Part shown: in pieces, positions 16,782 to 60,094 of the stretch
Position numbering within the stretch: position 1 is the stretch's first letter
How the letters are laid out: each line of letters starts with the position of its first letter
Assembly (NCBI RefSeq): GCF_002844395.1
Contig: NZ_CP025197.1
Span: 930,001-994,000 of the forward strand
From: Acetivibrio saccincola
GTDB taxonomy: Bacteria > Bacillota > Clostridia > Acetivibrionales > Acetivibrionaceae
Direction of reading: 5' to 3'
DNA length: 64,000 bases
The notes under the pieces: model-generated
The model's input: only the letters and a program-made list of their open reading frames with translations
Database searches by the model: none
Told to the model about the DNA's origin: nothing
Made by a program: the position numbers and the translations under genes

Positions 16782-18230
16782 ATGCTTTATGAAAGTTCGA
16801 ATAATCAGGGGATATATTCTCCAAGAGAGCCACGGAAAAATTATTATTATAGGTGCGTAGAAGAGAATTTTGAAGTTTTGGAGAGAGTGTGGGATGATAG
16901 GTACCAAAATACATACGGTTATTGGAGATCCCATATTCTAGATGTTATATATGATTACCTTGATTGTGGGAATTTGCATCTAGGGTTTGCCCGTGTTAAG
17001 TGTGAAGATTGTAACAAGGAGTATCTATTGCCTTTTTCATGTAAACGGAGGGCGTTCTGTCCTTCATGTCATCAGAGAAGAGTAGTTGAATTTGGAGAGT
17101 TTTTATACACTGAGGTTTTAAAAGAAGTTTCCCACAGGCAGTGGGTCTTTAGTATACCCAAAAGACTTAGATGCTATTTTATGTATGACAGAAAGCTACT
17201 TGCAAAACTATCAAGATGTGCATGGAAAGTCTTATGTGATTATCTTAAAAGTTCATCTGGAGATAAAGATTCAGTTCCTGGTGTTGTTATAGCTGTACAA
17301 ACATTTGGAGATTTTTTAAACTTTAATCCTCATTTACATGTAATTGCAACAGATGGTTGTTTTAAAGGGGACGGAGATTTTATAAAATCAGTATTACCTC
17401 AAGGAAAAGATATTGAGAAGGTTTTTCAGTCAGAAGTACTAAAGATGCTCAAAAAAGAGGGGAAAATTAATCAATTTATTATAGATAACATGCTTAGTTG
17501 GGAAAATACTGGATTTAATGTTTATTGTGGGGAGGCAATATACGCAGAGGAACAGGAGAGTATTGAAAAACTTGCTCAATATGTAGTTCGTGCTCCAATT
17601 TCTCAGGAAAGAATGTTTTACATACCACCAGAAGAAAGTTCAAATGAAGTTGGGAAAATTATTTACAAGGGTAAAAATAGCAGAGAAATTCAAGCTTTTG
17701 ATGCTTTGGATTGGTTAGCACGATTGGTAACTCATATCCCAAATAAGGGAGAGCAATTTGTAAGATGTTATGGTTATTATTCAAATAAGAGTAGAGGACA
17801 AAGGAAAAAAGCTGAGATAGATGATAAAGTACCTGCAATTGTAAGTAGTGATTTATCTAAAAAAGCTTTTCGTAAAAACTGGGCAAGACTTATTCAAAAG
17901 GTTTATAATGTTGATCCTCTAAAATGTAAATATTGCAATGGGAAAATGAGAATAATTTCGTTTGTAGAGGATGAAGAAACTATCGAGAAGATTTTGAAAC
18001 ATTTGAAGCTTTGGGGAATTCAGAATCATGATCCGCCTAATCATTTCAAAATACCACAACAATTTGAACATTTTATATTGGCCAATTCATTGCTAATTGG
18101 AAACAATGAAAAAAGTAATGAAAATATGGGCAAAAATAAAGACGGTAATTATGAAGAACACAATTCTAATAATGTTTTTCCTGATTATGAAACTTGTGAT
18201 GAAATGCCAAAATATGAGGACTGGTTTTAA
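16782..18230 (+). CDS. IS91-family HUH transposase (copy 1)
   Basis: The 482-aa protein has an N-terminal zinc domain (C74, C77, C87, C93, C96), the HUH metal motif FNPHLHVIATDG (H184, H186), and a single candidate catalytic tyrosine Y267 in QYVVRAPISQERM, as in Y1-type ISCR relatives. A second zinc pair near 385-390 (CKYCNGKM) follows. It nicks one strand and drives rolling-circle, one-ended transposition. Copy 1 differs from copies 2-4 by C at 329 (Y in the others) within RYYGYYSN and by I instead of T in AETDD; the first change may weaken it. Confidence 0.9.
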   Translation: MLYESSNNQGIYSPREPRKNYYYRCVEENFEVLERVWDDRYQNTYGYWRSHILDVIYDYLDCGNLHLGFARVKCEDCNKEYLLPFSCKRRAFCPSCHQRRVVEFGEFLYTEVLKEVSHRQWVFSIPKRLRCYFMYDRKLLAKLSRCAWKVLCDYLKSSSGDKDSVPGVVIAVQTFGDFLNFNPHLHVIATDGCFKGDGDFIKSVLPQGKDIEKVFQSEVLKMLKKEGKINQFIIDNMLSWENTGFNVYCGEAIYAEEQESIEKLAQYVVRAPISQERMFYIPPEESSNEVGKIIYKGKNSREIQAFDALDWLARLVTHIPNKGEQFVRCYGYYSNKSRGQRKKAEIDDKVPAIVSSDLSKKAFRKNWARLIQKVYNVDPLKCKYCNGKMRIISFVEDEETIEKILKHLKLWGIQNHDPPNHFKIPQQFEHFILANSLLIGNNEKSNENMGKNKDGNYEEHNSNNVFPDYETCDEMPKYEDWF

Positions 18231-18885: not shown

Positions 18886-21800
18886 TTATTCCGCATTAAC
18901 AATCTTCATCGTATGGTAAATCATTGTGAACATTTCTGCTCTTGTGACGATTCTTTCTGGCAAGAAATAGTTATTCTCATATCCTTTAATTATTCCTAAC
19001 TCATTAGCCTTTTTAACAAAGCCTTTTGCCCATAGGGCTATATCCTTATCATCTTCAAAATCGGTTTCTCCTTCTGAAATTCCCAAATTAAACGCATTCA
19101 TTATCATGGCACAGGCCTGATTCCTGGTCAGTTTGCTGTCAGCCCTGAAGCTCTTATCTTCAAATCCCTTTATAATTCCATTTTCTTGCGCCGCAGCCAC
19201 AGCCTCTCTAACCCATTCAGGAATTTCATCCGCATCAGAAAAATCTAATTTATCCGGATTTTGGGCTTTTAAATTTAAGCTGTTAACAAGTATCGTGACA
19301 GCTTCTGCTCTTGTTATTTCGGAATCAGGCTTTATAGAACCGTCCGGATACTTATTTATAATGCCTTTGCCAAGCAAATCTAATATATATGGTTCAGCCC
19401 AATGTCCTTCTGCATCGGTTCCACTTATTCCCGGAATATCTTCAATCGGTTTCTCCGTAATATCCGGCGTGGCAGTCGGTGTAGATGTAGGTGTAGATGT
19501 CTGGGTAGGCGTAGGAGACTGCGTAGGTGTTGAAGTAGGTTCAGGAGTATTTTTTGAGCCGGAAGAAGTACCACCGGATGGCTTTGAAGCCCTATAAACT
19601 GTTATCATGTATGTTTTTTTTGTTTCACCGTTTTCAGCTGTAACCACAACGGGAATCTTGTTTGTACCTGTATTCAAGTCAATACCTGCGGAGGGATATC
19701 CCGATAAAACAGGATTTCCATTGATAGTCAATTTAGAACGAATATCATATACTGAAGCAGTTACACTAATCTTATCGGTACTATATGGAACAGAAATCTT
19801 ATAGTCAGTTACATCAGGTGAAAAAGGCTTATCAAAAGAACCACAATCGGTTACAAGGTTCTTAAGATCTGCATTATTTGAAAGCTTTATTCTATTAATA
19901 TATATTTCCGCAACAGAAGGTACCCCTAGCACAGCATTAACCGGATTTTCCAAAGTTAATTTAAAATTCTTGGTTCTTGCTTCATTCTGTGAAGGTACTT
20001 TAAGTAATTTTATTTCAATTGTTTTTTCAGCCTCTCCGGCTTCAAAAGTCAGTGTTCCGCTGGGAGCAGCATAATCAACATCAGCAACTGCCGATCCGTC
20101 TTTTGTAGAATAATCTACACTCATAGTTCCACGCAGGTTACCACTCCTTCGAACAGTCACTAAAGCACTCTGATTCGATTCATCCAACGTATACACATCA
20201 TTGTCAAGCTGCACAATACTTACCTGGTTGGAAGTTCCACTGACAGTTATGGTGGGAAGAGTGAGACTCCTGGTGAAATTTTCATTTAAATAAACTACTT
20301 CCGGCACATTCACCATTCCGTTTTCGTCAGGCTCAATATCAACAAAAGCCTCACCTTCTATGGCCTTTAAATCATCATTATTAGCATGGATTGATATCTG
20401 ATATCCCCCATCACCTTTGAATTCCGAGAAAAAGGCTGTATATAAACCATCTCCCGGCATAAGGTCGCCCATCTGACCATTATCATAAAGAGTTACAATT
20501 GTTTCTGAGTTGTCAGGTGCTATTACTTTTGCATACACATTTGCATTTATCACGGGCTTTCCGTTTTTGCTTAATAATGCTGTTATCTTAACGGGAGTCG
20601 GATAAGTATATGTAATATCATCTGTACTACCTTGAAGAGACAGAGTTGTTCTACCTGAAAAATCAAAGGAAATCTCCGTATTGGCTTGAGAATTGTTTTT
20701 GATATTAACCTCCCAAGCACCTATCTGGGGATTATCTATTATATATATCTGATATGTATCTTCAATCATATAAGATGCACCATTTGTGCTGTCCGGAGAA
20801 TAAATAGTACCATCCGGAGCTTTTAATGTGAAAGAAACATTACCTGCATTTACCGAACTTATTGTAAATACTGCCTGTTTCATTGAGCTATCTACAAAAA
20901 CAACTTCGGTTGATTCTTCCATAGAACTAAATACTCTACGTATGAATTTTATTAGCCTGTCAAAGATACTTAACTTATTCTTTATTGTCTTGTAAATCAT
21001 GCTAATATCACCAGCAGAAGAAACAAAATAGTATTCTCCTCCTGTTTCTTTAGCAATACTAGTCAGTAAATTCGCATCAGCTCCACTTCCCACTCCGATA
21101 GTATATACAGGTATACCTTCGGATTGAAGCATGGAAATCTCTGTCGATGGTAGAGAAGCTTGCCCGTCTGATAAAAGTATAATAGCTCCTGCACCTTTTC
21201 TGTAGTCTTTAGATATCATGTCATTTAAGGCATTCCATAAGCCAGCTCCTATATTGGTTCCTCCACCCGAAGAAATATTATCGATTTTTGATTTTATGGC
21301 ACTCTTATCCGATATCGTAGCTACTCTTGTCAATGAATGATTCAATGTTGCACTGTTCTCAAAAGAAACAACACTAATGCCGTCTCCCAACTGTCCTTCT
21401 TGCGGAAGCTCTAAACAGTCTACAAACATTTTCGCTGCACCTTTGGCTAATTGAATTTTTGATCCTCTCATCGACCCTGATTTGTCGATAACTAAAGCTA
21501 TATCGTTCCATTTATTATTTTGCCTTACTTCAAACACCGGATCTTTCTTTTCAATTGGTTGAATATTTCCCCCAGGAGCAGTTAAATTAAATTTCTTATT
21601 TTCAACCATTACTTCCCAACAAGATTTGTTTCCATGAATTCTGTTATGATGACTGGGAGCCGATGAATTATGGCTGCTATCGCAAAAATCTACTATGCTG
21701 CTTTCATGCTGTATCCACATAATACTTGCTTTAGCACCATTAGAATTATAACTCGGTCTATAATTCTCTCCTTGTACAACTTCTGTAATTGTATTGCCGT

Positions 21801-22458
21801 TAGAATCTCTCATTAACATACTGGCCTGCGATTCACAAGTGTTCCACGTAATACTCCCATCAGCATTAAGTGTGCCGAACACCTGATAACTTCTTCCATT
21901 TTTGGTTTCATAATCACAATACTCATCTCCCAGGCCGTAACCATAGTGTCCAAACTCATGTACAATCGTTTTCCCTAATGAATGAGTTCCATTAGTATCA
22001 AATGCCTTGTCAATTCCAATATACATGTGCGATTCTTTTGAACCCATAAATCCCGCAAGATTAGCAGACGCTCCTCTTCCGGGTCTTATATAAACATCAG
22101 AATCTTCAGGGTTAAAATTGTCCATTGGAAGTGCACCTTGAATTTCAGGCCATCCGCCTTCTCTTGCTGCCGGAACATAAATTGTTATTTTGCCAAATCT
22201 GTTCTGTCCCTATGTAGCTTCATACAAGTAATTTGAAGCTTCAATAAAACTTTCCTTTACCTTTTCAACTATGTCACTTGGATCCTGACCGTACTTGTCG
22301 GTTGAATCTGTGTCATCCAGTATCATTACTCTTAAGTCTATTACACCTCCGGTAATACTGCCACTTGTACCTGTGGAAGCAAGAACCGTAGTACAGGTTG
22401 TAATAAGGATAGTAAAAACTAATAAGAATGATACAACTTTTTTAATACTGTGATTCAT
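18886..22458 (-). pseudogene. CLCA-like metalloprotease/VWA surface protein with SLH anchor, split by one amber codon
   Basis: The 1190-codon frame encodes a signal peptide (residues 1-28), a CLCA-type metalloprotease domain with HEFGHYGYGLGDEY (zinc motif at 167-171), and a VWA domain with the MIDAS DKSGS (325-329). Calx-beta and cadherin-like beta domains follow, then a Thr/Pro linker and three C-terminal SLH repeats for S-layer attachment. Codon 83 (22210-22212) is TAG in NYLYEAT-stop-GQNRFGKITIYVP. The frame continues unbroken on both sides, and relatives have Glu there, so a GAG-to-TAG change is the simplest explanation. Reinitiation at 22125 would lack a signal peptide. GGGGAG precedes the start. 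Confidence 0.85.
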
Positions 22459-22825
22459 TTTTATCTCCCCTTTTAATATCTTTTAATATTATATTAAAAC
22501 ATAATTAAATTTTGATCAAAATCTTTATTTCACTGGCTTTCACCAGTTATTTTGTATCTCACTGAAAAATAAAAATTTTAATACCATCAAATTACTCAAA
22601 CTACACTTTAGAAATAAGTATTTAATTGTAGTTGTATATATGTGGAAAAACATCATGTATATTATACCATAAAATTATAATATATACAATAGATTTTTTG
22701 GTAAAATTTTAGCAATTCTTTGGAAATAAGAAATAATCATTATTCAGAAATAAAGAAGTCGCTCAAATAAGTTTTTACTATTTCAACACTATTGCAACTC
22801 TTCAGTTATAATATGTAAATAAAAA
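22459..22825. other. AT-rich intergenic region
   Basis: This separates two genes that diverge from it: the CLCA-like gene (minus) and the lipoprotein gene (plus). Apart from the promoter at 22826-22854 I see no gene or ordered repeat. Confidence 0.6.
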
Positions 22826-22854
22826 TTGCATTTCACTTATAAGTAGTATATAAT
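22826..22854 (+). promoter_or_regulatory. Strong sigma-A promoter of the repeat lipoprotein gene
   Basis: TTGCAT (22826-22831) and TATAAT (22849-22854) are spaced by exactly 17 bp. The coding start is about 45 nt downstream of the expected transcription start, preceded by AAAGGAGG. Confidence 0.75.
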
Positions 22855-22906
22855 ATTAATGTAATTAAGATATTGCTAATCAGCAATAATAAAGGAGGAT
22901 AAGTTC

Positions 22907-23464
22907 ATGAAGTTCTCTATATTTCCAATTCTATTAATAGTTGTATTGTTGATTGTATCATGCAAGTATAAAGCTGACTTAGATTCCTCTGACAATGTAG
23001 ATATTACTAAAGAATTCTCTGACGATGACGTTATTAATAAATCCGAAAATTTCTGGGATACCGACGAAAAGACTATACCGTCTCCCACCCCTACTATTGA
23101 TATTACCAAAGAATTCTCTGACGATGACGTTGTTAATAAATCCGAAAATTTCTGGGATACCGACGAAAAGAGCATTCCGTCTCCCACCCCTACTATTGAT
23201 ATTACCAAAGAATTCTCTGACGATGACGTTATTAATAAATCCGAAAATTTCCGGGATACCGATGAAAAGAGCATTCCGTCTCCCACCCCTACTATTGATA
23301 TTACCAAAGAATTCTCTAACGATGACGTTATTAATAAATCCGAAAATTTCTGGGATACCGACGAAAAGACTATACCGTCTCCCACCCCTACTATTGATAT
23401 TACCAAAGAATTCTCTAATGATGACGTTATTAATATGTCAGAGAATTTCTGGGATACCAATTAA
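22907..23464 (+). CDS. Lipoprotein built of 33-residue tandem repeats
   Basis: The 185-aa protein has a lipoprotein signal (hydrophobic core, lipobox IVSC with C19) and a short spacer. It then has 4.7 copies of a 33-residue acidic unit running from DITKEFSDDDVINKSENFW to PSPTPTI. The acidic half may be a binding module; the Pro/Thr part looks like a cell-wall spacer. It is a membrane-anchored, surface-exposed protein of unknown function. The strong promoter and ribosome site suggest real expression. The last unit ends at DTN plus stop. No homologue is recognised. Confidence 0.8.
   Translation: MKFSIFPILLIVVLLIVSCKYKADLDSSDNVDITKEFSDDDVINKSENFWDTDEKTIPSPTPTIDITKEFSDDDVVNKSENFWDTDEKSIPSPTPTIDITKEFSDDDVINKSENFRDTDEKSIPSPTPTIDITKEFSNDDVINKSENFWDTDEKTIPSPTPTIDITKEFSNDDVINMSENFWDTN
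23000..23464. repeat. 99-bp in-frame tandem repeat (4.7 units)
   Basis: Units start at 23000, 23099, 23198, 23297 and 23396. They differ by only a few bases (for example GACGAT or AACGAT after TTCTCT), so the array is young. Because 99 is a multiple of three, gain or loss of units keeps the frame. Confidence 0.95.
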
Positions 23465-23699
23465 GGAGTTACTAGCAGAGACATTACCAATCCCCATACA
23501 GTAGTGCGAAAGAGCAAAGCCACCTTTACTCAAAGCGAAAATAATAATCAAAAAAACATTTTATTGCTTTTTGTCAACCAATTGTGTTTATTTCAACAAA
23601 TTCTTCAGGTCTACCGACTTTACATCGGCAGCCTTTTTATTTTCAGCCTGTATTTCTAAAAATATCTCTTTTCTATAAATAGAAACACTTTTAGGAGCA
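23465..23699. other. Non-coding region between lipoprotein gene and broken IS
   Basis: A small GC-richer hairpin (CCGA with TCGG near 23620, followed by CTTTTT) could terminate the lipoprotein transcript. The end of the outer insertion sequence must lie here, but I could not find a convincing terminal repeat. Confidence 0.35.
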
Positions 23700-24646
23700 T
23701 TACTTATGCTCATGTATTTTATCTGCAAGGATTACAGTTATCAACTGTGTAATGCCTGCGATGTATAAGTCCGCCTTGATTGTTTGATTATCTCTTGTTT
23801 TAAGCTTGCCACAGGCCATGGGCTCTTTTAAATACTGGATATTTTTTTCGACTACAACTCTGATTTTGTAATCCGAAATCCATTCTTCAGAGCCACGTAT
23901 TGCACCTGGATACATGCGTTGGTCTTGAGCAGGAGATGTGTAAGTTATTCTTCCACAAGGCTTTCCGTTACAGGGGTTTTCACAGGATGTAATCCATTTG
24001 CCATTAATTCTTTTTACAAGGGGACACCGCCATTTAAATCTATCACTACGTCCTGCTTCCCGGGTCCATCCAAAGGGTTTCATAGTTACTGATGGATCTT
24101 TAAAGCAAAGTGGCCATCCGTTTACATCGTACTTAATTTCAGGGATGTCAGGATTGGAGTTTCTTGAGTTTAGAGGGATTAGAGCTCTTTTGAATTTAAA
24201 ATCACCTAGAAGCAAGGGATAAGTGGCATAGGTATCAAAAATAGAGTCCCCTAGAAAGGTATGAGGCTTAAAATCCGGGTGAAGATTGAAGAAGTCTGTA
24301 AGTACTGGTTTAAGGGATTTTGAATCACTAATAGATTTATCTTCATCAGGAGAATCTGATTTTTTATCAATCTGCATTTCAGGGTGTTTTTGCTTGAAAT
24401 CATTATCTAAAAAGGTTATATTTCTTGGAATACCAAGGCCATTAGTGATAATGCCAAACTTGTAAACATAACAGAAATAGCCGTTTATGTAAAGCTGCTT
24501 AATTTCTTCATTGGCAGATGCACAAGAAGGCATAAGGCCATAAGCCATTTTGTAGACATCAACGTCTGGATTGTTTTTATAGAAAGCCTTAAGCTTTTTT
24601 ATAATAGAATTAATGAACTTGGGATTATTCTCGGTTACAAAAGCTT
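23700..24646 (-). pseudogene. DDE transposase, 3' part (split by an inner IS)
   Basis: This is the C-terminal two-thirds of a DDE transposase: FVTENNPKFINSIIKKLKAF, then KMAYGLMPSCASANEEIKQ and the late DDE region (GDSIFDTYATYPLLL). The N-terminal part is at 26906-27368. The first usable ATG in this half is at 24548, but the reading frame runs unbroken to the AAGCTT junction at 24641-24646. Confidence 0.85.
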
Positions 24647-29122: not shown

Positions 29123-30571
29123 ATGCTTTATGAAAGTTCGAATAATCAGGGGATATATTCTCCAAGAGAGCCACGGAAAAATTATTATTATAGGTGCGTA
29201 GAAGAGAATTTTGAAGTTTTGGAGAGAGTGTGGGATGATAGGTACCAAAATACATACGGTTATTGGAGATCCCATATTCTAGATGTTATATATGATTACC
29301 TTGATTGTGGGAATTTGCATCTAGGGTTTGCCCGTGTTAAGTGTGAAGATTGTAACAAGGAGTATCTATTGCCTTTTTCATGTAAACGGAGGGCGTTCTG
29401 TCCTTCATGTCATCAGAGAAGAGTAGTTGAATTTGGAGAGTTTTTATACACTGAGGTTTTAAAAGAAGTTTCCCACAGGCAGTGGGTCTTTAGTATACCC
29501 AAAAGACTTAGATGCTATTTTATGTATGACAGAAAGCTACTTGCAAAACTATCAAGATGTGCATGGAAAGTCTTATGTGATTATCTTAAAAGTTCATCTG
29601 GAGATAAAGATTCAGTTCCTGGTGTTGTTATAGCTGTACAAACATTTGGAGATTTTTTAAACTTTAATCCTCATTTACATGTAATTGCAACAGATGGTTG
29701 TTTTAAAGGGGACGGAGATTTTATAAAATCAGTATTACCTCAAGGAAAAGATATTGAGAAGGTTTTTCAGTCAGAAGTACTAAAGATGCTCAAAAAAGAG
29801 GGGAAAATTAATCAATTTATTATAGATAACATGCTTAGTTGGGAAAATACTGGATTTAATGTTTATTGTGGGGAGGCAATATACGCAGAGGAACAGGAGA
29901 GTATTGAAAAACTTGCTCAATATGTAGTTCGTGCTCCAATTTCTCAGGAAAGAATGTTTTACATACCACCAGAAGAAAGTTCAAATGAAGTTGGGAAAAT
30001 TATTTACAAGGGTAAAAATAGCAGAGAAATTCAAGCTTTTGATGCTTTGGATTGGTTAGCACGATTGGTAACTCATATCCCAAATAAGGGAGAGCAATTT
30101 GTAAGATATTATGGTTATTATTCAAATAAGAGTAGAGGACAAAGGAAAAAAGCTGAGACAGATGATAAAGTACCTGCAATTGTAAGTAGTGATTTATCTA
30201 AAAAAGCTTTTCGTAAAAACTGGGCAAGACTTATTCAAAAGGTTTATAATGTTGATCCTCTAAAATGTAAATATTGCAATGGGAAAATGAGAATAATTTC
30301 GTTTGTAGAGGATGAAGAAACTATCGAGAAGATTTTGAAACATTTGAAGCTTTGGGGAATTCAGAATCATGATCCGCCTAATCATTTCAAAATACCACAA
30401 CAATTTGAACATTTTATATTGGCCAATTCATTGCTAATTGGAAACAATGAAAAAAGTAATGAAAATATGGGCAAAAATAAAGACGGTAATTATGAAGAAC
30501 ACAATTCTAATAATGTTTTTTCTGATTATGAAACTTGTGATGAAATGCCAAAATATGAGGACTGGTTTTAA
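29123..30571 (+). CDS. IS91-family HUH transposase (copy 2)
   Basis: 482 aa, with all motifs of the family (HUH 184-186, Y267, zinc Cys clusters) and Y329 present. Copy-specific change: S for P in NNVFSDYE near the C-terminus. It appears functional. Confidence 0.9.
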   Translation: MLYESSNNQGIYSPREPRKNYYYRCVEENFEVLERVWDDRYQNTYGYWRSHILDVIYDYLDCGNLHLGFARVKCEDCNKEYLLPFSCKRRAFCPSCHQRRVVEFGEFLYTEVLKEVSHRQWVFSIPKRLRCYFMYDRKLLAKLSRCAWKVLCDYLKSSSGDKDSVPGVVIAVQTFGDFLNFNPHLHVIATDGCFKGDGDFIKSVLPQGKDIEKVFQSEVLKMLKKEGKINQFIIDNMLSWENTGFNVYCGEAIYAEEQESIEKLAQYVVRAPISQERMFYIPPEESSNEVGKIIYKGKNSREIQAFDALDWLARLVTHIPNKGEQFVRYYGYYSNKSRGQRKKAETDDKVPAIVSSDLSKKAFRKNWARLIQKVYNVDPLKCKYCNGKMRIISFVEDEETIEKILKHLKLWGIQNHDPPNHFKIPQQFEHFILANSLLIGNNEKSNENMGKNKDGNYEEHNSNNVFSDYETCDEMPKYEDWF

Positions 30572-34566: not shown

Positions 34567-34685
34567 GTTAGCGTAAAGTTATTGTAGGGAATGAGACATA
34601 AAATACCATATAAAATTGAAAAGAAGATGACATCCTGTTAAGATATTAATACAAAAAAAATCTAACAGAAAGGATGACATCTTCT

Positions 34686-36125
34686 ATGTATAATAGTATA
34701 CAACATTTTAATGAATTTGGGGCAAAAAGAATTGAAAAAAAGATAAAAAATTTTATTGAAGAAGGAAAAGACTTAGCTGATCTTATTCTTGGTCTGAAAG
34801 AAGATTTATTTAAACTTGGACGCGATATACTTAAAGAAGTGCTTGAAGATATGGATGAATATTTACGTAACTGTGAAATAAGGAAACAGTATTGGGAAAT
34901 TATAAGAAAAGATAAAACATCTATTTTAACGACATTTGGAACACTAAGTTATAACAGGACATATTTTAAGCATAAGGAAAATGGTAATAGACAACACCTG
35001 GTCGACAGGATTGTAGGTGTAGAACCACATGACAGAGTAAGTGCCGATGTTGTAATTAATGCAATAGAAGAAGCAGCTGACAGCAGCTACAGAAAGGCAG
35101 GAGAAAAGGCGACATATATTGATGAAATCAGCAAACAAGCTGTGATGAATAAAATACATAATATTGAAATAGTTGAGCCTGAAATAAAAGTAGATAAAAA
35201 GAGAAAAGTAAAAATATTGTATGTTGAGGCAGACGAGGATCATGTAGCATTACAACAAAAAAGTATATTGAGACAGAATGAGAAGGGCAAGAGAAATACA
35301 ATTATGCCAAAACTTGTATATGTGCATGAGGGAATTGACTTTGAAAAAAGTAATAAGAAGAGAAAAGTATTAAAGAATGTTCGATATTTTGGGGGTGTGT
35401 ATAATAATTCAGAAAATTTGTGGCTTGAAGTATCGGAATACATATATAAACAATATGACGTTGATTTTTTAGAGACGGTGTATATATTAGGAGATGGGGC
35501 GTCATGGATAAGGCAAGGAGTTAACTGGCTTTCAAAAAGTAAATTTGTACTTGATAGATACCATCTTCAAAAATACGTAAGAGTTGCAACCACACATTTA
35601 AATGATGAAGCAATAAGCCAAGATTTACAGGACGCATTGAATTTATCTGATAAAAAAAAGCTAACAAAGGTTTTTAAAAAGATAATCGAAAAGACAGGCG
35701 ATAATGAAAGTAAAATAAAGGCTATAAAAAATGCAAAGCGATATATTTTAAATAATTGGGATGGTATAGAAATAAGGTCAAACAGAGGAATAGTGGGTTG
35801 TAGTGCTGAAGGTCATGTGAGTCATGTATTTTCATCCCGTTTAAGTTCAAGACCTAAAGGCTGGTCGAGAAAAGGTGTAGAAAAGATGTCAAAGCTGATA
35901 ATATACAAGAAGAATGGCGGTAAGGTATATGACATAGTTATGGCACAAAAACAAAAAAAGTTAGCAGCTAGTAGGCAAGAAATTCAGGAAAAATTAATTA
36001 AGGAATTAAAGAAGTCATCAAACAGGTATGAGAGTGTATGGAATAGTAATTTAACTGTTATTCATAAGGGGTGTAAAACTGGTTTATATAAAGAATTAAG
36101 GCGTATTATAGGTATATGCGGATAG
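34686..36125 (+). CDS. ISLre2 (UPF0236) transposase
   Basis: I place the start at 34686 (MYNSIQHFNEFG) because AGAAAGG is 12 nt upstream; the in-frame ATG at 34674 touches that site. The 479-aa protein has YVEADEDHVALQ, ILGDGASWIRQGV, VLDRYHLQKYV and CSAEGHVSHVFSSRLSSRP, all family hallmarks, and appears complete. It differs clearly from the outer element's transposase, so the two are distinct ISLre2 lineages. Confidence 0.9.
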   Translation: MYNSIQHFNEFGAKRIEKKIKNFIEEGKDLADLILGLKEDLFKLGRDILKEVLEDMDEYLRNCEIRKQYWEIIRKDKTSILTTFGTLSYNRTYFKHKENGNRQHLVDRIVGVEPHDRVSADVVINAIEEAADSSYRKAGEKATYIDEISKQAVMNKIHNIEIVEPEIKVDKKRKVKILYVEADEDHVALQQKSILRQNEKGKRNTIMPKLVYVHEGIDFEKSNKKRKVLKNVRYFGGVYNNSENLWLEVSEYIYKQYDVDFLETVYILGDGASWIRQGVNWLSKSKFVLDRYHLQKYVRVATTHLNDEAISQDLQDALNLSDKKKLTKVFKKIIEKTGDNESKIKAIKNAKRYILNNWDGIEIRSNRGIVGCSAEGHVSHVFSSRLSSRPKGWSRKGVEKMSKLIIYKKNGGKVYDIVMAQKQKKLAASRQEIQEKLIKELKKSSNRYESVWNSNLTVIHKGCKTGLYKELRRIIGICG

Positions 36126-39845: not shown

Positions 39846-41761
39846 AAAACTGAAGCCTTCTTTTCCGTCGAACTCATCTTATTTATACCGGTTATTTGTG
39901 TATCTTTTGACAATATAGAAGGTTCAACTTGTACATTTTTATGCGGTAGACTGCTACCTAAAGTCTGATTTGCCTGAACAGGCTTTATAAGCTTACCCAA
40001 CTCTACAATCTTCTTTATTACTACTTTATGATAAAAAGATTTACATAATACAATATTTGTGTTAAAACATATATAGAACATTTGTTCTATATATGTTTTA
40101 AGAGTGTGAGTACTAATGCTTTATGAAAGTTCGAATAATCAGGGGATATATTCTCCAAGAGAGCCACGGAAAAATTATTATTATAGGTGCGTAGAAGAGA
40201 ATTTTGAAGTTTTGGAGAGAGTGTGGGATGATAGGTACCAAAATACATACGGTTATTGGAGACCCCATATTCTAGATGTTATATATGATTACCTTGATTG
40301 TGGGAATTTGCATCTAGGGTTTGCCCGTGTTAAGTGTGAAGATTGTAACAAGGAGTATCTATTGCCTTTTTCATGTAAACGGAGGGCGTTCTGTCCTTCA
40401 TGTCATCAGAGAAGAGTAGTTGAATTTGGAGAGTTTTTATACACTGAGGTTTTAAAAGAAGTTTCCCACAGGCAGTGGGTCTTTAGTATACCCAAAAGAC
40501 TTAGATGCTATTTTATGTATGACAGAAAGCTACTTGCAAAACTATCAAGATGTGCATGGAAAGTCTTATGTGATTATCTTAAAAGTTCATCTGGAGATAA
40601 AGATTCAGTTCCTGGTGTTGTTATAGCTGTACAAACATTTGGAGATTTTTTAAACTTTAATCCTCATTTACATGTAATTGCAACAGATGGTTGTTTTAAA
40701 GGGGACGGAGATTTTATAAAATCAGTATTACCTCAAGGAAAAGATATTGAGAAGGTTTTTCAGTCAGAAGTACTAAAGATGCTCAAAAAAGAGGGGAAAA
40801 TTAATCAATTTATTATAGATAACATGCTTAGTTGGGAAAATACTGGATTTAATGTTTATTGTGGGGAGGCAATATACGCAGAGGAACAGGAGAGTATTGA
40901 AAAACTTGCTCAATATGTAGTTCGTGCTCCAATTTCTCAGGAAAGAATGTTTTACATACCACCAGAAGAAAGTTCAAATGAAGTTGGGAAAATTATTTAC
41001 AAGGGTAAAAATAGCAGAGAAATTCAAGCTTTTGATGCTTTGGATTGGTTAGCACGATTGGTAACTCATATCCCAAATAAGGGAGAGCAATTTGTAAGAT
41101 ATTATGGTTATTATTCAAATAAGAGTAGAGGACAAAGGAAAAAAGCTGAGACAGATGATAAAGTACCTGCAATTGTAAGTAGTGATTTATCTAAAAAAGC
41201 TTTTCGTAAAAACTGGGCAAGACTTATTCAAAAGGTTTATAATGTTGATTCTCTAAAATGTAAATATTGCAATGGGAAAATGAGAATAATTTCGTTTGTA
41301 GAGGATGAAGAAACTATCGAGAAGATTTTGAAACATTTGAAGCTTTGGGGAATTCAGAATCATGATCCGCCTAATCATTTCAAAATACCACAACAATTTG
41401 AACATTTTATATTGGCCAATTCATTGCTAATTGGAAACAATGAAAAAAGTAATGAAAATATGGGCAAAAATAAAGACGGTAATTATGAAGAACACAATTC
41501 TAATAATGTTTTTCCTGATTATGAAACTTGTGATGAATTGCCAAAATATGAGGACTGGTTTTAAAGAATAAATTCTTATAACCTTAAGTTTGTAGTGCTA
41601 TTTTTTGTTTTGTGCAGGAGGTTCAATACTTAAAGATAATATTATTTTGGGATTATTATTTAAAAATGAAGCAAATGTATATTGTTTTGGATGATTTTTG
41701 ATTTTAGTAGTGAAAAACAGAATTTAATATGATATTATGAAAAAAGCAAATACCTATCTAT
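39846..41761 (+). mobile_element. IS91-family element, copy 3
   Basis: Identity with the other copies starts at AAAACTGAAGCC (39846), about 90 bp nearer to the transposase than in copies 1, 2 and 4, and ends at the common right end 41761. To the right it cuts pseB, to the left it joins the DUF4349 fragment. The remaining passenger is about 215 bp of the transglutaminase N-terminal region. Confidence 0.85.
40116..41564 (+). CDS. IS91-family HUH transposase (copy 3)
   Basis: 482 aa with H184, H186, Y267 and Y329 intact. Private differences are WRPHIL (P for S at 50), NVDSLKC (S for P) and CDELPK (L for M). None falls on a recognised catalytic residue. Confidence 0.9.
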   Translation: MLYESSNNQGIYSPREPRKNYYYRCVEENFEVLERVWDDRYQNTYGYWRPHILDVIYDYLDCGNLHLGFARVKCEDCNKEYLLPFSCKRRAFCPSCHQRRVVEFGEFLYTEVLKEVSHRQWVFSIPKRLRCYFMYDRKLLAKLSRCAWKVLCDYLKSSSGDKDSVPGVVIAVQTFGDFLNFNPHLHVIATDGCFKGDGDFIKSVLPQGKDIEKVFQSEVLKMLKKEGKINQFIIDNMLSWENTGFNVYCGEAIYAEEQESIEKLAQYVVRAPISQERMFYIPPEESSNEVGKIIYKGKNSREIQAFDALDWLARLVTHIPNKGEQFVRYYGYYSNKSRGQRKKAETDDKVPAIVSSDLSKKAFRKNWARLIQKVYNVDSLKCKYCNGKMRIISFVEDEETIEKILKHLKLWGIQNHDPPNHFKIPQQFEHFILANSLLIGNNEKSNENMGKNKDGNYEEHNSNNVFPDYETCDELPKYEDWF

Positions 41762-58645: not shown

Positions 58646-60094
58646 ATGCTTTATGAAAGTTCGAATAATCAGGGGATATATTCTCCAAGAGAGCCACGGA
58701 AAAATTATTATTATAGGTGCGTAGAAGAGAATTTTGAAGTTTTGGAGAGAGTGTGGGATGATAGGTACCAAAATACATACGGTTATTGGAGATCCCATAT
58801 TCTAGATGTTATATATGATTACCTTGATTGTGGGAATTTGCATCTAGGGTTTGCCCGTGTTAAGTGTGAAGATTGTAACAAGGAGTATCTATTGCCTTTT
58901 TCATGTAAACGGAGGGCGTTCTGTCCTTCATGTCATCAGAGAAGAGTAGTTGAATTTGGAGAGTTTTTATACACTGAGGTTTTAAAAGAAGTTTCCCACA
59001 GGCAGTGGGTCTTTAGTATACCCAAAAGACTTAGATGCTATTTTATGTATGACAGAAAGCTACTTGCAAAACTATCAAGATGTGCATGGAAAGTCTTATG
59101 TGATTATCTTAAAAGTTCATCTGGAGATAAAGATTCAGTTCCTGGTGTTGTTATAGCTGTACAAACATTTGGAGATTTTTTAAACTTTAATCCTCATTTA
59201 CATGTAATTGCAACAGATGGTTGTTTTAAAGGGGACGGAGATTTTATAAAATCAGTATTACCTCAAGGAAAAGATATTGAGAAGGTTTTTCAGTCAGAAG
59301 TACTAAAGATGCTCAAAAAAGAGGGGAAAATTAATCAATTTATTATAGATAACATGCTTAGTTGGGAAAATACTGGATTTAATGTTTATTGTGGGGAGGC
59401 AATATACGCAGAGGAACAGGAGAGTATTGAAAAACTTGCTCAATATGTAGTTCGTGCTCCAATTTCTCAGGAAAGAATGTTTTACATACCACCAGAAGAA
59501 AGTTCAAATGAAGTTGGGAAAATTATTTACAAGGGTAAAAATAGCAGAGAAATTCAAGCTTTTGATGCTTTGGATTGGTTAGCACGATTGGTAACTCATA
59601 TCCCAAATAAGGGAGAGCAATTTGTAAGATATTATGGTTATTATTCAAATAAGAGTAGAGGACAAAGGAAAAAAGCTGAGACAGATGATAAAGTACCTGC
59701 AATTGTAAGTAGTGATTTATCTAAAAAAGCTTTTCGTAAAAACTGGGCAAGACTTATTCAAAAGGTTTATAATGTTGATCCTCTAAAATGTAAATATTGC
59801 AATGGGAAAATGAGAATAATTTCGTTTGTAGAGGATGAAGAAACTATCGAGAAGATTTTGAAACATTTGAAGCTTTGGGGAATTCAGAATCATGATCCGC
59901 CTAATCATTTCAAAATACCACAACAATTTGAACATTTTATATTGGCCAATTCATTGCTAATTGGAAACAATGAAAAAAGTAATGAAAATATGGGCAAAAA
60001 TAAAGACGGTAATTATGAAGAACACAATTCTAATAATGTTTTTCCTGATTATGAAACTTGTGATGAAATGCCAAAATATGAGGACTGGTTTTAA
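58646..60094 (+). CDS. IS91-family HUH transposase (copy 4)
   Basis: 482 aa with all family motifs intact. It carries no private amino-acid change against the consensus of the four copies, so it is the best candidate for the active version. Confidence 0.9.
   Translation: MLYESSNNQGIYSPREPRKNYYYRCVEENFEVLERVWDDRYQNTYGYWRSHILDVIYDYLDCGNLHLGFARVKCEDCNKEYLLPFSCKRRAFCPSCHQRRVVEFGEFLYTEVLKEVSHRQWVFSIPKRLRCYFMYDRKLLAKLSRCAWKVLCDYLKSSSGDKDSVPGVVIAVQTFGDFLNFNPHLHVIATDGCFKGDGDFIKSVLPQGKDIEKVFQSEVLKMLKKEGKINQFIIDNMLSWENTGFNVYCGEAIYAEEQESIEKLAQYVVRAPISQERMFYIPPEESSNEVGKIIYKGKNSREIQAFDALDWLARLVTHIPNKGEQFVRYYGYYSNKSRGQRKKAETDDKVPAIVSSDLSKKAFRKNWARLIQKVYNVDPLKCKYCNGKMRIISFVEDEETIEKILKHLKLWGIQNHDPPNHFKIPQQFEHFILANSLLIGNNEKSNENMGKNKDGNYEEHNSNNVFPDYETCDEMPKYEDWF

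Follow-up and report, generated by a model that had tools for sequence, protein, structure and literature searches.

The window analysed here, a 64,000-nucleotide stretch of the Acetivibrio saccincola genome, carries on its minus strand a gene for a CLCA-like, SLH-anchored surface protein (18886..22458). The frame starts with ATG at 22458 and comprises 1190 codons (22458-18889) followed by a terminal TAA. Direct reading showed exactly one internal stop in this frame, a TAG at codon 83 (22210..22212, minus strand), confirming the amber codon that a sequence-only reading of the DNA had noticed at 22208-22214. That reading had also regarded the TAG as the only defect, which is borne out by the absence of a frameshift and by an end-to-end alignment with an intact orthologue from Pseudobacteroides cellulosolvens. 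Codon scores for the 50 codons before and the 50 codons after the TAG (0.353 and 0.240) indicate coding-like sequence, and GC3 values are alike on both sides (0.28 and 0.29). A ribosome-binding-site-like AGGGGAG is located ahead of the start codon (22465..22471, minus strand), with a duplex energy of -8.2 kcal/mol which, computed against an assumed 16S tail, is equalled at 4.5% of 507 gene positions. A search of the whole genome returned the same frame with one TAG inside and 45 other matches, all of which fall within residues 315-490 of the VWA region or residues 948-1190 of the C-terminal part. The search showed no further CLCA-type protein, PF08434 being matched once in the genome. Two SLH/VWA loci of the genome, L012 and L013 (G000:C1 3317404-3320922 and 1346095-1349613), one on each strand and at a large distance from one another, do not differ at any of the 3519 bases compared, and represent either a recent inverted duplication or a feature of the assembly.

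The domain architecture noted before, CLCA, VWA and SLH, was recovered by Pfam, and the HExxH motif could be read directly from the frame. Ahead of the stop, a hydrophobic N terminus of about 28 codons resembling a signal peptide (22375..22458) was recognized by eye, with a helix predicted for residues 3-26. The CLCA N-terminal domain PF08434 (residues 61-295; 21574..22278; E 1.1e-20), scoring 74.7 bits and thus above the gathering score of 25.6, is cut by the TAG. It contains the zinc-protease motif HEFGHYGYGLGDEY (residues 167-180; 21919..21960), which matches HExxHxxxGxxDEY, the consensus given for the CLCA active site (PMC3650047). Further downstream, a VWA domain (PF00092; 21001..21504; E 2e-23), a Calx-beta domain (PF03160; 19894..20229; E 3e-21), a cadherin-like domain (PF12733; 19591..19857; E 1.2e-19) and, as cell-wall anchor, three SLH repeats (PF00395; 18904..19419; E 3.2e-36; extent taken from the first matching stretch to about residue 1185) follow, all on the minus strand. 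The profile TIGR00868, representing animal calcium-activated chloride channel proteins, was matched with 183.1 bits, below its curated cut-off of 900.85; judged by this score, the predicted protein is homologous to that subfamily and no member of it. An AlphaFold2 model of residues 1-320, built from 35 sequences, reached a mean pLDDT of 72 and a pTM of 0.73. The top PDB matches of this model in Foldseek are metzincins, but they are weak (two at E <= 0.001, TMq 0.28-0.29). Taken together, the gene appears to have coded for a secreted, SLH-anchored surface protein resembling CLCA-type zinc metalloproteases, with export signal and activity as predicted properties.

Within the order, PF08434 was detected in two of 58 genomes, the window genome and P. 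cellulosolvens (G788), in one of 391 sampled genomes of the class, and in one of 398 of the phylum, the last two hits being the window's own genome; the genomes surveyed are partly incomplete, with completeness of 90% or more and contamination of 5% or less in 42 of the 58. That the family was unmatched in 56 of the 58 genomes of the order was counted toward dispensability of the gene. Upstream, a divergently oriented lipoprotein-like gene (22907..23464, plus strand) is built for the most part from 4.6 tandem copies of a 99-bp repeat, with 94% matches. A divergent lipoprotein-like neighbour occupies the same place next to the P. cellulosolvens gene (L103:795-1214); the two are similar by BLASTP at E 8e-5, a similarity residing partly in low-complexity sequence. 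Window positions 22788-23702 are also 99.5-100% identical, apart from a run of 138 Ns, to L131:1-829, where an 86,865-base contig ends in G009, a genome placed in another genus of the family. This genome has the adjacent lipoprotein gene in common with the window, yet no CLCA gene was seen in it, which was likewise counted toward dispensability. The identity breaks off sharply at 22788, which suggests a recent exchange or a stray contig. Elsewhere in the window, four transposase genes of 482 codons, at least 99.65% identical to each other, are present on the plus strand (16782-18230, 29123-30571, 40116-41564, 58646-60094), two of which were submitted to Pfam and are both IS91-type. A stretch of 128 bases beside the first of them is found again at seven sites in the 960-1024 kb region of the genome, and also in genomes of other family members, recurrences resembling a local IS array. 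The same mobile-element-rich region includes an ORF matching UPF0236 (34674-36125, plus strand; E 1.7e-84).

The nearest relative found, the P. cellulosolvens gene (L103:1486-5124), is intact and codes for 1212 amino acids. Its product is 57% identical to the window protein over query residues 5-1187, with Pfam domains in identical order and lysine in the column of the stop. Synonymous sites are saturated in comparison with this only orthologue, so that relaxed selection on the window branch, as measured by dN/dS, lies beyond the comparison. To a wider set of homologues, a DNA pattern search for the active site contributed 35 loci, 34 of which reach the stop column; L084 was left out of the column count, since its stretch starts seven codons ahead of the motif. 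All 34 have a sense codon in the column, a count to be read with their distance (19-62% identity over the part fetched) and with the way they were chosen, as frames lacking stops in the vicinity of the motif: any stop in the column would shorten the frame and drop the row, and L084 is the sole row dropped. The residues are Asp in 16, Asn in nine, Glu in six, Ala in two, and Lys in one. From the family pattern, Glu (GAG) had been expected at this position. With Glu in just six of 34 homologues and Lys in the nearest orthologue, this expectation was not upheld, and in view of the column counts Glu is one possibility among several. The following position is a conserved glycine, present in at least 90% of the 35 aligned sequences, and the window gene retains it as Gly84. 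When regions of the window protein were compared to the 35 homologous frames by phmmer, VWA was detected in seven, Calx-beta in one, and SLH in none; the P. cellulosolvens frame in this set ends before its SLH repeats and truncation may affect further frames, so that absence is not proven for all. A protein scan of genome contigs for conservation of the stop yielded no relative, plasmids gave no match, and the pattern across the stop site was not found in viral contigs.

What the TAG would do to the product can be deduced from its position. In the AlphaFold2 model, residue 83 lies in a turn between a helix (60-81) and a strand (87-95) of the protease domain. Termination by RF1 would leave 82 residues, the signal peptide and a stub of the protease domain. 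Because the stop interrupts the protease domain and separates the signal peptide from the rest, loss of function is to be expected, and the allele would most likely be null or nearly so. Codon 83 would have become TAG by a point mutation, most likely recently. In this gene, 4.5% of single substitutions create a stop; from this rate and the lack of any further stop, neutral divergence since the break is estimated at less than about 1.9% per site at 95%, a bound that assumes neutrality since the break and ignores indels, and a gene still used despite its stop would look alike.

To obtain a base rate of such interruptions, the window and two sets of 20 stretches of 20 kb each were inspected, about 0.86 Mb of the 3.6 Mb genome. 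In total, 515 pairs of open stretches separated by a stop in the same frame were detected (265 and 250 in the two sets), and 24 of these (12 and 12) were coding-like on both sides, the separating stops being TAA in 16, TAG in seven, and TGA in one. Pfam searches with all 24 revealed 12 ordinary gene boundaries, 11 with different families on the two sides and one flanked on both sides by complete VWA domains. One family spans the stop in five cases and seven were left unclassified. Frames continuing across the stop include, besides the window gene, an ISL3 transposase interrupted by TAG (L111:16243-17601, minus strand), a thioredoxin/thioredoxin-reductase fusion interrupted by TAG (L146:14115-15434, plus strand), a scaffoldin-like gene whose TAA is flanked by cohesins on either side (L147:11215-15966, plus strand; assigned by Pfam with some judgement by eye), and a PtsI-like gene (L160:6091-7536, minus strand). 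The last one is an older ruin, since it contains an upstream frame change besides its TAA. The broken transposase differs from an intact sister copy (L124) at only four of 1359 bases, the sister having Trp at the stop, which indicates that young nonsense lesions do occur in this genome. For the reductase fusion, the three PDB relatives that match best have Ser, Lys or Arg in the stop column. As other frames are also broken by one stop and no common residue is found at the respective columns, the CLCA-like gene is one of several nonsense lesions. From the sequences, the pattern looks like a general nonsense load, produced by mutation or by base errors, and unlike a recoded amber. In the lone-stop frames judged real, the stop is TAG in three of four (window gene, transposase, and reductase fusion); this constitutes a weak excess, as the window gene itself was chosen for its TAG, and it would also fit leakiness of amber codons.

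Of the three explanations offered by the sequence-only reading, fresh nonsense mutation, suppression, and sequencing error, the first fits best: the gene is probably a young nonsense allele, most likely null or nearly so. A mobile neighbourhood and the absence of the gene from most relatives fit such a loss by point mutation.

Sequencing error remains the main alternative. The TAG would then be a base error in the assembly consensus and the gene would be intact, a reading to which we assign a distinctly lower, though appreciable, probability. An isolated single substitution in an otherwise perfect frame, with a sense codon at this column in an intact orthologue, is what such an error would look like, and a modest error rate would also produce a few other good genes with one stop, as encountered in the sample. 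On the other hand, the genome is represented by one contig of 3,604,547 bases at 99.73% completeness, and substitution errors left in finished genomes are rare. In addition, among the broken genes at least L160 has a second defect in its frame change, as expected from real decay. The lone-stop genes elsewhere in the genome by themselves fit mutation and base error equally.

Suppression, or on-off reading of the gene, was not supported. One form of it is a stop that is tolerated, near-cognate readthrough yielding little full-length protein and the codon acting as dampener or switch. The gene shows no further decay, codon 83 lies in a loop of the predicted model, two more lone-TAG genes are present in the sample, and many inserted residues might work at this position, since D, N, E, A, and K are all accepted in the column. 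A precedent is also available, many bacterial in-frame stops having been proposed to be dampeners or switches (Belinky et al. 2021; PMC7918605). Against this, the only close orthologue is without the stop. Three stretches of RNA around the stop were compared with shuffled sequences. Downstream of the TAG, folding is no better than in shuffles (z 0.12). The stretch centred on the TAG, with its main hairpin just upstream, is the only one of the three more stable than shuffles (z -2.86), a stability that is ordinary within the gene, being equalled by 28 of 175 windows of 80 nt. Back-up stops within ten codons are in no excess after TAG (48 of 85 genes) compared to TAA (130 of 214) and TGA (31 of 49). 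A dedicated decoding apparatus was not detected either. The best match in a PylS search of the genome reached 30.8 bits, compared to a cut-off of 178.15 (in a control set, 13 of 14 genomes gave some match and one a match above the cut-off), while RF1 is present with 561 bits against a cut-off of 423.25. None of 51 tRNAs matching RF00005, each also called by ARAGORN, has a CUA anticodon; scoring covered 150 of the 237 candidates from the first look, which leaves room for an odd tRNA to have escaped. A direct ARAGORN scan of 0.8 Mb revealed five tRNAs, none of them with CUA. Neither pyrrolysine decoding nor a suppressor tRNA found support in these searches. Tolerance of the stop by readthrough is accordingly considered improbable. 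The same has to be said of its more elaborate version, in which the amber would be kept as a dampener, so that readthrough at a tolerant loop would supply traces of the SLH-anchored CLCA protease, variable from cell to cell, with the other lone-TAG genes behaving likewise; we regard this as quite improbable.

The TAG could also separate two working genes, translation restarting at Met112, the first in-frame start past the stop (22123..22125, minus strand). The ATG at 22125 opens a frame of 1079 amino acids, but its product would have no signal peptide and an incomplete zincin core, losing the strand 39-46, the helix 60-81, and the strand 87-95 of what is predicted as a single domain (mean pLDDT of the model 72). 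This start is located 29 codons past the TAG within coding-like sequence, and its Shine-Dalgarno-like duplex is unremarkable, being equalled at 28% of the 507 gene positions, which makes a restart very improbable. Recoding of amber in this organism, by pyrrolysine or by reassignment of TAG, would account for the in-frame TAG and the two other genes with a lone TAG in the roughly 0.86 Mb sampled, but can practically be dismissed on the PylS, tRNA, and RF1 results above, with TAG as terminal stop in 85 of 348 sampled genes and with Lys, Trp, and Ser/Lys/Arg as disparate counterparts of the TAG in the orthologue, the ISL3 sister, and the reductase relatives, respectively.

Under the preferred reading, a young nonsense allele, the stop itself matters little, since alleles with a lone nonsense codon occur commonly in bacteria and further examples exist in this genome. 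Of greater interest is the gene that carries it, predicted to specify an SLH-anchored CLCA-type protease, a rare architecture present in two clostridia of one order. Such a gene could help to explain the role of prokaryotic CLCA proteins, and the window strain is possibly a natural null for comparison with its relatives. A limited literature search yielded no paper naming both 'Pseudobacteroides cellulosolvens' and 'CLCA'. The lone stop in an otherwise well-kept gene resembles the cases treated by Belinky et al. 2021 (PMC7918605), whose focus is on stops common to at least two species; a second genome with the window stop was not found here. According to the parts of the family description used (PMC3650047), occurrence of CLCAs in prokaryotes is very patchy, with Chloroflexi, Synergistetes, Proteobacteria, and Thermococcus listed for CLCA_N and Firmicutes named just for the related CLCA_X family. 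The window gene agrees with CLCA_N (PF08434) as characterized there in the succession of CLCA and VWA domains, in the HExxHxxxGxxDEY motif, and in its scattered prokaryotic occurrence. It departs from that description in being clostridial, in having Calx-beta, cadherin-like, and SLH domains, and in being interrupted by TAG. The closest parallel is the P. cellulosolvens orthologue, which has the same domain order, a similar length, and a divergent lipoprotein-like neighbour, and which, unlike the window gene, is intact with lysine at the column of the stop.
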